This document shows, one piece after another, positions 18,605-24,134 of a stretch of DNA of 24,810 bases. The stretch's first letter is position 1. Every line of letters begins with the position of its first letter. The notes under the pieces were generated by a model. It had not been told where the DNA came from. It saw nothing but the letters and a program-made list of their open reading frames with translations, and did no database searches. This DNA comes from a virus. The stretch lies in IMG/VR virus record IMGVR_UViG_3300031787_000787, positions 1 through 24,810 of that record. The stretch is one strand, 5' to 3'. A program made the position numbers and the translations under genes.

Positions 18605-18616
18605 TAAACTGGCGGT

Positions 18617-18692
18617 AGCAGCGTGGAGAAGCCCAGTTGTTCTCGCCGGCCTCATAAGCCGGAGATCGTCGGTGCGAATCCGACCGCTGCCA
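18617..18692 (+). tRNA. tRNA with CAT anticodon (Met, initiator-like)
   Basis: The cloverleaf can be drawn by hand. The acceptor arms are AGCAGCG/CGCTGCC, with six pairs and an unpaired first position (A1 opposite C72). The D stem is GAGA/TCTC, and the anticodon stem is CCGGC/GCCGG around loop CTCATAA, with CAT at 18653-18655. The T stem is GTCGG/CCGAC around TGCGAAT. CCA is not encoded. The unpaired 1:72 position and the D-arm sequence TGGAGAAGCCCAG resemble bacterial initiator tRNA, although the anticodon stem has GGC/GCC rather than GGG/CCC. The T loop has G at position 55 instead of the usual pseudouridine site. Confidence 0.85.
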
Positions 18693-18759
18693 TTCAAATC
18701 CCGAGCCGCTGAAACACGCGGCCGGGTCGCCGGCGGGAGCCCCCATCCACGCCGCTGCG

Positions 18760-20563: not shown

Positions 20564-20782
20564 CTACTTCTTCGGCTTTCGACCACCGGACACCCGGGGC
20601 CGTCCGGCGGTCGGGTGCCGCTCAAAAGCCTCGGCGGCCGAGCGGAGCACGAACCAGATGCCATCGATCTCGACGGCCGGAATGCGGCCCGCCTGGGCCT
20701 GAGTCCGCATCCACATCCGCGACACGTCCGCGAGCTCCGCGGCGTGGCCGACCGTGACATAGAGGGAGGGGTCGATCTTCAT
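20564..20782 (-). CDS. Excisionase-like / MerR-type winged helix DNA-binding protein
   Basis: 72 residues. The pattern YVTVGHAAELADVSRMWM (helix-turn-helix), then AQAGRIPAVEIDGIWFVLRS, matches the short HTH_17/excisionase family ('tv.eAAel.gvs...v....G.ipavri...w...r'). The basic tail GGRKPKK supports DNA binding. Lying between the replication operon and the integrase module, it could direct excision or regulate the operon. Planctomycete chromosomal proteins of this type also exist. Confidence 0.75.
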   Translation of the reverse strand: MKIDPSLYVTVGHAAELADVSRMWMRTQAQAGRIPAVEIDGIWFVLRSAAEAFERHPTAGRPRVSGGRKPKK

Positions 20783-21330: not shown

Positions 21331-22203
21331 TCACCCCGCATCCAACCGCGGGAGCATGTCGGCCGGCCGAGGCCCGCGATTCAAGTAGCGTGGGTCGATG
21401 TACCACTTGCGAGTCGTGGCCGCTTGGGCGTGGCCGGCGAAGGCCACCGCGGTCGCGTCGTTCGTCGCCTTCGCCATGTGGCTGATTGCCGACCGCCTCA
21501 CCTGCTGAAATGCCATCCGCTTTCCGGCCAGCCCAGCCGTGGAGAGGATTTGTTTCACCTTGTCCCACAGATACGTTCGCGTTTTCGGCCACGCGAAAAT
21601 CTTGGCCTTGTTGACCCGAAGGAGCCGCTCGATCCGGTCGCATGCTTCTGGCGACAGTTCGTAGACGCGGGCCCGCCTGCCTCCCTTCCTGATCTCGCCG
21701 GGCACGGTCAGGAAAGGCCGTGCGTAATGCTTCGGCTCGACATCGAGCAGAGCCCCGATCCGCTCCGTCGTCTCGAAGCACACGGTGATGATGGCTGGGA
21801 AATACTCCCCTGCCGGCACAAGGCCGACGTAGCCGCTGGCAGCAGCTGCTGCCTTGAACGCTCGCCGCAGCTCGTCTGCCGACCATGCGACCGGTACGCG
21901 GTCTGGCAACGGCGAAGGCTCGCACGACGGGAGCGAAGGAATCATCCGCCTGTCATTCGCCAGCCGGGCCATGGCCATAAGCTGCGATCGCTCTTTCTCG
22001 GCCGTGTACGGCGACACCGTGGATTGCCGGTGATCCATGAAGCCGGCAAGGGTGATTTCCTCGAGGTCTGCCAACATCGGCGTTCGCTCAAGGAACTTGG
22101 CAAACGCTCGGATCGTGGCAGCGTACAGCCGCGACGTTCCGGGCGACTTGCCGCGCAGTTTCAGCGGACGATAGTAGCGGTCGAAAAACTGTTGAAGAGT
22201 CAT
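21331..22203 (-). CDS. Site-specific tyrosine recombinase (integrase)
   Basis: 290 residues from ATG 22203, chosen because CAGGAGG lies seven bases upstream; the earlier TTG would include that site. An N-terminal SAM-like DNA-binding domain spans about residues 4-90 (QFFDRYYRPLKLRGKSPGTS). Catalytic residues: R148 (FETTERIGALL), K173 (GEIRKGGRR), R236 in FQQVRRS, H258 (AFAGHAQAATT) and nucleophile Y268 (RKWYID). The usual first His of the HxxR box is Gln (Q233). It integrates and excises the phage DNA. The attachment site is not identified. Confidence 0.9.
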   Translation of the reverse strand: MTLQQFFDRYYRPLKLRGKSPGTSRLYAATIRAFAKFLERTPMLADLEEITLAGFMDHRQSTVSPYTAEKERSQLMAMARLANDRRMIPSLPSCEPSPLPDRVPVAWSADELRRAFKAAAAASGYVGLVPAGEYFPAIITVCFETTERIGALLDVEPKHYARPFLTVPGEIRKGGRRARVYELSPEACDRIERLLRVNKAKIFAWPKTRTYLWDKVKQILSTAGLAGKRMAFQQVRRSAISHMAKATNDATAVAFAGHAQAATTRKWYIDPRYLNRGPRPADMLPRLDAG

Positions 22204-22297
22204 GGCGTGTACCTCCTGCAAGGGGATAGTTCACGCTTCCGTGCCATGCAAACCGCCCCCCTCCTTTGGGTCGGTTCGTGGCGGTTATGACACTTTT

Positions 22298-22423
22298 CCG
22301 AGACACCGTTGGTCGGTGAACCCGAAGGGCGTCCCCGCCACTCGGGTCGTCGCGATGGTCCTTCCGGAGGGCCATCGCGGCGACTTCTATCTCGACGATT
22401 GCTTCGGGATCGCACCGAAGCAA
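22298..22423 (+). ncRNA. Highly structured leader RNA upstream of the repressor
   Basis: Three nested or consecutive structures stand on the plus strand. (1) CCGAG (22298) pairs with CTCGG (22341), enclosing a hairpin CACCG-TTGGT-CGGTG and CCC-GAA-GGG. (2) A 17-bp stem, 22346-22362 with 22368-22384, including two G-U wobbles that pair only in plus-strand RNA. (3) A perfect 9-bp stem TTGCTTCGG/CCGAAGCAA (22399-22423). The start codon follows 24 bases later, with GGAGGG at 22433. This is a strong candidate for a regulatory RNA, attenuator or riboswitch-like leader. Confidence 0.55.
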
Positions 22424-22447
22424 GCATTGGCATGGAGGGCCGCGAAA

Positions 22448-22711
22448 ATGGCTACGGTGAGCGAGAGACACCCGGGCGGGAGGCCACCGAAGCACAAGCG
22501 GTCAGCTATGTTTTTGCGTGTCAAGGAAATGGCACGCCGGAAAGGCCTGCATCTAGACGAGTTGGCTTCCAGGTCCGGGCTGTCAGACACGGCCTTCTAC
22601 AAACTGAAAGACCCGCGACTATCGACGTTGCGGAAATTGTCCAACGCCCTTGGCGTCACGATCGACAAACTGACTCGCGACGTGAATCTCGAAGAAGCAT
22701 CGCAGCAGTGA
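22448..22711 (+). CDS. XRE-family transcriptional repressor (CI-like)
   Basis: An 87-residue DNA-binding protein. ATG 22448 follows GGAGGG at good spacing; longer upstream reading frames run through the structured leader. Residues 10-17 (GGRPPKHK) form a basic arm. Residues 22-75 form the XRE helix-turn-helix: RVKEMARRKGLHLDELASRS, then GLSDTAFYKLKDPRLSTLRK, then LSNALGVTIDKL. There is no peptidase or dimerisation domain, so it is a minimal repressor. Divergent from the integrase and near divergent early promoters, it is the likely lysogeny repressor. The nearby palindrome at 23163-23195 is its best operator candidate. Confidence 0.85.
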   Translation: MATVSERHPGGRPPKHKRSAMFLRVKEMARRKGLHLDELASRSGLSDTAFYKLKDPRLSTLRKLSNALGVTIDKLTRDVNLEEASQQ

Positions 22712-23143: not shown

Positions 23144-23171
23144 ATTCTAGCATCTTTGACGTTTATCAGAA
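23144..23171 (-). promoter_or_regulatory. Leftward promoter of the divergent early pair
   Basis: On the minus strand TTCTGA (23171-23166) and TAGAAT (23149-23144) are 16 bases apart. TAGAAT matches five of six consensus bases and the -35 is weaker. It leads to the 23099 gene. Its -35 overlaps the left arm of the palindrome. Confidence 0.5.
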
Positions 23172-23195
23172 CTCATGTTGACAGAGTTTTGATAA
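23163..23195. promoter_or_regulatory. Imperfect palindrome, likely operator of the divergent promoters
   Basis: The 12-base arms 23163-23174 (TTATCAGAACTC) and 23184-23195 (GAGTTTTGATAA) are inverted repeats with one mismatch around ATGTTGACA. The centre overlaps the rightward -35 and the left arm covers the leftward -35. One bound dimer could therefore shut both promoters. Repressor binding is an inference. Confidence 0.55.
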
Positions 23196-23206
23196 CCGGA
23201 TAAAAC
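23178..23206 (+). promoter_or_regulatory. Rightward early promoter
   Basis: TTGACA (23178-23183), a perfect -35, then 17 bases, then TAAAAC (23201-23206), four of six at -10. The start of transcription would be near 23213. It drives the operon with CsrA and the ATPase. Confidence 0.65.
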
Positions 23207-23948: not shown

Positions 23949-24134
23949 ATGCTTTTGGTCGCGTGCAAGTTGGACGACGGCGTCACGGTGGAGGTGCCAG
24001 GGCACGGCACGATTCACGTGCTCATCACGCGGATCAGGGCGGGCGAAGTTCGGCTGGGAATCACGGCACCGCGGGAATGGCCCGTCGTGCGTGATGAGGT
24101 TCGGAGGCGTTTGTCACAGGAGGTGAAGCGATGA
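23949..24134 (+). CDS. csrA: CsrA-like translational regulator
   Basis: 61 residues from ATG 23949, with GGGAG about nine bases upstream. The C-terminal half VRLGITAPREWPVVRDEV aligns with the CsrA core 'VRIGV.APKEV.V.REEI', including the RNA-binding Arg (R48). The N-terminal strand (MLLVACKLDDGVTVEV) has drifted: the usual R-K-x-GE after the first strand is missing. CsrA dimers bind GGA motifs in mRNA leaders and block or stabilise translation. This copy likely alters host or phage mRNA use early in infection. It overlaps the next gene by 4 bp. Confidence 0.8.
   Translation: MLLVACKLDDGVTVEVPGHGTIHVLITRIRAGEVRLGITAPREWPVVRDEVRRRLSQEVKR

Follow-up and report, generated by a model that had tools for sequence, protein, structure and literature searches.

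Positions 22298-22447 of this phage genome contain, judged by sequence, an attachment site (attP), followed by a hairpin that would form the trailer of a tRNA and by a further stem, specific to one clade, for which leader and promoter are the two candidate roles. The structures in this stretch are real and conserved, and are largely explained. We interpret the whole as an attachment region in which integration would set the regulator gene behind the host initiator tRNA, with hairpin II attenuating read-through from it. We regard the chances for and against this interpretation as evenly balanced.

The window, that is the whole stretch of DNA analysed, is the complete IMG/VR record IMGVR_UViG_3300031787_000787 of 24,810 bases, which comes without a host assembly. 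The stem-bearing stretch lies between an integrase gene and a divergent gene for an 87-aa regulator:

21331-22203, minus strand: tyrosine integrase gene with its ATG at 22203 (PF00589 over cut-off; PHROG integrase 3.1e-23)
22448-22711, plus strand: Cro/C1-type HTH regulator of 87 aa, putative lysogeny repressor (HTH_3 and HTH_26 over cut-off; PHROG transcriptional regulators)

The original prediction was of a single elaborate leader RNA in front of the regulator, with three successive elements. All the complementarities are present in the sequence. CCGAG at 22298-22302 is complementary to CTCGG at 22341-22345, the 17-nt arms of hairpin II (22346-22362 and 22368-22384) pair with two non-Watson-Crick pairs, both G-U, and the perfect 9-bp stem of hairpin III is formed by TTGCTTCGG at 22399-22407 and CCGAAGCAA at 22415-22423. 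Folded as plus-strand RNA, 22290-22449 has an energy of −83 kcal/mol, whereas 200 shuffles that keep the dinucleotides average −59.87 ± 4.08 kcal/mol (z = −5.67). For the minus strand z is −2.82, and in neither strand is any shuffle as low. The stems are real, but the 5' third of the stretch holds the attP core, so that the idea of one leader does not stand. Nor is the multi-hairpin element closed by CCGAG/CTCGG in the minimum-energy structure, where CACCG/CGGTG and ACCCGA/TCGGGT form instead. An Rfam 15 search of the window at gathering score gave a single match, to a tRNA elsewhere, and nothing in 22298-22447; blastn against the phage collection gave no match. The regulator frame is open from 22202, and an N-terminal extension of the protein through the leader was considered; it was rejected because in L015 the frame has a stop shortly before the regulator start.

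The 5' third of the stretch, element 1, contains the following features:

22307-22314, plus strand: CGTTGGTC motif, inside the CACCG/CGGTG hairpin, between integrase gene and core
22320-22347, plus strand: inverted repeat ACCCGA/TCGGGT that flanks the core; from their complementarity its arms are probably bound by the integrase
22331-22340, plus strand: attP core GTCCCCGCCA, identical to the 3'-terminal ten bases of a planctomycete initiator tRNA

Judged by its identity with this tRNA end, 22331-22340 is the attP core of the window's integrase lineage. It ends 107 bases upstream of the regulator start codon. The identity with initiator tRNA covers ten bases in the window and at least 18 in L105 and L015 (compared with the G001 initiator tRNA). 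Many upstream regions have (C)GAATCCTGTCCCCGCCA(T/C)T or a near form, which is the planctomycete initiator-tRNA end as found in the G001 tRNA, and 106 of the 296 genomes scanned in the order have this pattern. A profile of the window integrase matched 191 relatives, of which the best 80, viral loci, were considered; identity to the window integrase is 85% for L015, 65% for L017 and 40-42% for L020-L026 and L098. For comparison of the core we took 61 of the 80 loci plus the window, L020, L024, L025 and L098. The core is present in all 66 regions, a set picked after the presence of the core had been inspected. Omitted were repeats of the window, L105 or L107 (L102-L104, L106, L108), the incomplete L113, eight loci taken to lack the core (L149, L151-L153, L158, L160, L171 and, as a near-duplicate of L158, L159), and L173, L175-L177 and L179.

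Element 1 is, as far as sequence goes, DNA around the core, made up of the CGTTGGTC motif and the ACCCGA/TCGGGT inverted repeat. The motif occurs in 9 of 40 non-redundant relatives, lying 33-36 bases from the core end in 7 of these 9, and the first half of the element is absent from L015 and L017. The arms are probable candidates for the integrase core-binding sites, with a complementarity that is modest: over 40 sites 3.9 of six pairs can form, compared with 3.58 for re-dealt partners (p = 0.0018; outer three pairs p = 0.0004). Shifting the register by one abolishes the signal (mean 1.3 versus 1.45 re-dealt, p = 0.975). As the core lies in this third, most of element 1 would separate from the regulator upon integration, and the regulator would keep only the part from the crossover onward. 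A clean recombination break at the core was not found between L021 and L024. These are 99.7% identical over 300 nt on the regulator side; on the other side identity is 65-88% over the 160 nt adjoining the core and 85-100% beyond.

The phage has a tRNA-Met(CAT) of its own at 18616-18693, with initiator-like marks (by reading, the first acceptor pair is mismatched). Aligned to the host initiator tRNA it is of the same isotype, so that the phage carries the tRNA type whose gene would be its integration target. L014, L015 and L016 also have a tRNA-Met(CAT), and the L015 copy carries GGGCTCATAACCC.

Directly behind the core lie a hairpin and its tail:

22346-22384, plus strand: hairpin II, candidate RNA trailer behind the tRNA after integration and probable leaky terminator or attenuator
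22385-22392, plus strand: U-enriched tail TTCTATCT behind hairpin II, of which the first three bases can pair with GGG at 22344-22346

Hairpins were scored over 40 non-redundant regions by a method giving G-U no advantage over A-C. In 30 of the 40 the best hairpin begins no further than ten bases past the core. It reaches z ≥ 2 in 36, and in 27 none of 40 shuffles is as good. Its sequence varies among the relatives and its pairing is kept. The wobble pairs had been taken to point to selection on the plus-strand RNA, and the relatives bear this out. On the plus strand of the 40 leaders the non-Watson-Crick pairs comprise 39 G-U, 7 A-C and 10 others; composition-matched shuffles lead to an expectation of 54% G-U, and the excess has p = 2e-5, a value calculated over pairs that are not independent within a leader or between related leaders. 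Counted by leader the excess is 21 versus 2. L144, one of the 40 regions, is host-side sequence and contributes no G-U and no A-C. A more lenient scorer gave 134 G-U and 97 A-C (p = 0.018) and was superseded by the stricter scoring. The excess of G-U over A-C indicates that hairpin II is selected as RNA in the tRNA-to-regulator direction. It also speaks against stems II and III being DNA palindromes bound by integrase, excisionase or regulator, as does the variable sequence of hairpin II. Such binding would be in keeping with stems that adjoin attP, with an element 1 that fits integrase core arms and with the TTGC...CAA retained in the primary sequence of hairpin III. Yet by eye hairpin III is unlike the palindromes over the downstream promoters in the window or in L015, and we consider protein-bound DNA palindromes very improbable.

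The eight bases behind a strong early hairpin (34 leaders) are 39% T, compared with 22% A in the mirror position (Wilcoxon p = 0.001), and T falls to 16% in the following 22 bases. A strong hairpin with at least five T in the tail is found for 8 of 40 phage hairpins and for 6 of 31 native initiator-tRNA trailers; 14 of the latter have a strong hairpin. That so few phage hairpins are strong and have such a tail counts against tRNA read-through controlled by termination. A terminator scan of the window did not list hairpin II with its tail. From these properties hairpin II is perhaps an RNA trailer behind the tRNA, and a leaky terminator. Eight of the 34 leaders (window, L105, L107, L109, L111, L112, L020 and L165) stand before a gene for an HTH_3-type regulator, and in most of the others an HTH_17 excisionase-like gene follows the hairpin (by eye; L130 was scanned, giving HTH_17 at 3.7e-10). 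Since hairpin II also precedes excisionase-like genes, we assign it to the end of the tRNA and not to the repressor. The riboswitch-like control that had been suggested is not supported.

These observations can be combined as follows. The integrase would recombine 22331-22340 with the 3' end of the host initiator-tRNA gene. In the resulting prophage the host tRNA would be restored, its own terminator would be displaced to the far end, and phage sequence from 22341 onward would come to lie directly behind the tRNA. Hairpin II, now three to five bases behind the tRNA, would act as a weak leaky terminator or attenuator, at which most tRNA transcripts would end and some pass. The read-through RNA, running through hairpin III and the Shine-Dalgarno sequence, would be the message of the 87-aa regulator. 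The host tRNA promoter would therefore drive the regulator, and would do so chiefly in the integrated state.

A junction of this kind is present in a sister lineage integrated at tRNA-Arg. In L005, L006, L008 and L010, all found by their regulator, the 3' half of tRNA-Arg lies directly before the hairpin and the regulator start. A search with the window integrase did not match L005, L008, L010 or L034/L035, so that this is a separate lineage. L034, contig JAIXPT010000413.1 of a Planctomycetaceae genome, contains an intact tRNA-Arg (L034:5643-5718) with the regulator ATG 68 bases behind it; inspection of the reading frames by eye places host genes before it and phage genes behind. Near the far end of the contig is an integrase gene, and outside it a second copy of the tRNA-Arg 3' half. 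The intact tRNA-Arg and the repeated core thus mark a prophage of ~34 kb with the regulator directly behind the restored host tRNA. Between tRNA and regulator no promoter-like site stands out in L034 (best score 2.9, reached by 0.46 of shuffles), and upstream of the tRNA a site scores 7.9 (0.04 of shuffles). The promoter-like scores are 6.0 for L005 and L010 (0.06 and 0.07 of shuffles) and 4.2 for L008 (0.17). With no conspicuous promoter-like site between tRNA and regulator in L034, and hairpin II weakly terminator-like, read-through is the simplest reading. Among ten non-redundant members of the tRNA-Arg lineage the hairpin reaches z ≥ 2.5 in 7, with 8 G-U and 2 A-C pairs. The hairpins are weak in L226 (z = 1.5), L097 (−0.7) and the integrated L034 itself (1.9), all of which counts against tRNA read-through.

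Taking both lineages together, we tentatively suggest, while thinking it rather less than probable, that widespread planctomycete phages have a lysogeny regulator without its own promoter, switched on by integration behind a host tRNA (initiator or tRNA-Arg), the leak being set by a phage-specific, sequence-unrelated hairpin.

In the window's own lineage the integrase of L144 is 44% identical, and beyond its core this locus passes into DNA sharing 88% identity, over 60 bases, with the flank behind the G001 initiator tRNA. We take L144 to show where an integrated phage of the window lineage joins host DNA at the initiator tRNA. The flank match starts 73 bases behind the core in L144 and 13 behind the tRNA in G001, an offset that we count against read-through from the tRNA. 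Searches of Planctomycetota genomes with the regulator and integrase profiles revealed no lysogen of the window phage itself, which also counts against the read-through model. The regulator profile matched 47 of 392 genomes at E 1e-6, G001 giving 8.8e-41 and the next 1.1e-11. ARAGORN on 29 other regulator-profile loci gave one tRNA in total (tRNA-Asp, L075, minus strand). Within the G001 family (72 genomes) there was one further regulator match, L097 in G406, which has a tRNA-Arg 3' half upstream but lacks an intact tRNA and a hairpin better than those of shuffles. The window integrase was found in three of the 72 genomes, and the core only in L098 (G459), where the arrangement around it is phage-like. 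Over the 392 genomes the integrase profile gave two matches, neither with the core, and an HTH_17 profile gave an uninformative absence of matches in 382 genomes.

The region between the tail and the regulator contains:

22392-22430, plus strand: hairpin III, with an inner stem of 9 bp and an outer stem TCGA/TTGG; the same bases hold TTGCTT-N17-AAGCAT
22434-22438, plus strand: Shine-Dalgarno sequence GGAGG of the regulator

Hairpin III is confined to the window clade. Covariation was analysed in seven sequences, six of them distinct (L110 is close to L109), using the structure of the window, and the check proposed with the original prediction came out in its favour: compensatory changes preserve the pairing of both stem II and stem III. 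Twelve pairs are changed on both sides (6.9 ± 1.7 in shuffles), 77.8% of cells are paired (69.8% in shuffles) and the covariation score is 0.337 (0.206 in shuffles). None of 500 shuffles reaches these three values, and 6 of 500 reach that of one further measure. Slid versions of the structure have at most 47.8% paired cells, a comparison in which a structure derived from the window is at an advantage. The outer stem of hairpin III becomes CCGA/TCGG in L109 and CTGA/TCAG in L112. This outer stem and the uneven loop would favour RNA rather than promoter DNA.

TTGCTT-N17-AAGCAT occupies 22399-22427, and if it is a promoter the RNA would start near 22434, so that there would be no long leader. TTGCYY, then 17 bases (18 in L107), then an AAGNAT-like hexamer is found in all six distinct clade members, and the distance from the site to the start codon is constant at 19-21 bases. 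The promoter score is reached by none of 200 shuffles in L109 and L112, and by 0.045 in L111. Such a site would suit an order of tRNA end, terminator, own promoter and regulator, in which hairpin II insulates, replacing the displaced terminator, and hairpin III is a weak promoter over a palindrome. The strong hairpins of the native initiator-tRNA trailers fit this order, as do L114, L117 and L119, where a strong promoter lies between hairpin II and the excisionase-like gene. However, the −10 hexamer is poor, and the score is matched by 0.10 of shuffles in L105, 0.11 in the window and 0.155 in L107. No promoter-like site stands out in L020 or L165, L034 has no such site, and hairpin III covaries, with a form better suited to RNA. 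An own promoter is possible, if somewhat doubtful; this site and the strong promoters of the three relatives do count against tRNA read-through.

A structured 5' leader could alternatively control translation of the regulator, by Shine-Dalgarno sequestering, an sRNA, CsrA or a ligand. The Shine-Dalgarno sequence is mostly paired in the window (unpaired 0.16) and L105 (0.22), but it is half open in L107 and L109-L112 (0.46-0.58), which rules out sequestering as a conserved property. The phage has a CsrA-family gene at 23949-24134 (PF02599 at 8.5e-10, over cut-off), and the tip of hairpin II is GGA in three of eight leaders (window, L105, L107). Yet apart from the Shine-Dalgarno sequence the eight leaders compared share no GGA, so that binding of the leader by CsrA, as once proposed, is not supported by these motifs. 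Given in addition that Rfam has no match and that hairpin II precedes other types of gene, we think translational control by a leader unlikely. Between leader and promoter as the role of hairpin III we make no choice. A CsrA-similar frame was seen by eye in L008.

The preferred reading, transcription of the regulator from the host tRNA promoter, has a near parallel in ICEKp1 of Klebsiella pneumoniae. According to the portion of that report drawn on here, int transcription is state-dependent and its co-transcription with the tRNA was measured; integration behind the tRNA displaces the tRNA terminator, and stem-loops in the 5'-UTR are a potential terminator (PMC13023037). In the window, too, the gene concerned would be the first in the direction of the tRNA, with stem-loops in between. 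In ICEKp1 that gene is the integrase (PMC13023037), whereas in the window it is an HTH_3 regulator, and the integrase would lie at the opposite prophage end. The layout is seen in L034, where the gene stands directly behind the tRNA with a weak hairpin; for the window we infer it. In mycobacteriophage BPs, going by the passages cited, attP lies inside the repressor gene and integration removes a degradation tag (PMC4557955). Integration would alter regulator expression in both cases; unlike in BPs, the attP of the window is upstream of the regulator and the gene stays whole. Integration in tRNA-dependent lysogeny, as far as the cited section describes it, uses a ten-base core and a phage tRNA of the same isotype, and the host tRNA is not reconstructed (PMC10865867). 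The window likewise has a ten-base core and a same-isotype phage tRNA, but its core reaches the last base of the tRNA, so that the host tRNA would be restored. Like intrinsic terminators behind bacterial tRNA genes, the hairpin would closely follow the tRNA, at a distance of a few bases, and it has a U-enriched tail; unlike in these, most phage copies have a poor U-tract or none.

That elements may be coupled to tRNA promoters has been suggested earlier (PMC2951348, in the part cited), and an excerpt of another study has a possible archaeal case (PMC8371274). In the excerpts of the literature covered, ICEKp1 is the nearest case and no repressor read from a tRNA promoter was met, though one may exist. 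The new part would be that a phage captures the promoter of a host tRNA to drive its lysogeny regulator. If true, immunity would depend on integration through promoter capture, a second route besides placing attP inside the repressor gene as in BPs, and maintenance of the prophage would be coupled to transcription of the host initiator tRNA. It would also explain stem-loops at attP that are readily taken for riboswitches. One integrase lineage with the same layout and different regulators is amenable to reporter swaps.

The regulator is a Cro/C1-type HTH protein adjoining int, with a possible early promoter downstream (by eye):

23161-23206, plus strand: imperfect palindrome over a TTGACA-N17-TAAAAC promoter, possible early promoter and regulator operator, found by eye

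The palindrome lies 450 bases behind the regulator gene, and L015 has a different palindrome over a promoter at a like place. On the grounds of family, place and the palindrome over the TTGACA promoter the protein is a putative lysogeny repressor; it may instead be an excision factor or Cro. In the regulators of L005, L008, L010, L034, L020 and the window the N-terminal 13 residues (MATVSERHPGGRP or a close form) are conserved and the remainder differs widely. At 20564-20782 on the minus strand is an HTH_17-like protein below the Pfam cut-off (21.6, cut-off 27), whose end, ERHPTAGRPR, resembles ERHPGGRP at the regulator start. Upstream of int, L155 has two tandem initiator-tRNA cores ~30 bases apart, and in L156, L161, L163 and L180 hairpin arms contain the core-like GAATCCTGTTCC and its complement. 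G546, G511, G555, G661 and other genomes have multiple initiator-tRNA copies, some of them tens of kb apart.
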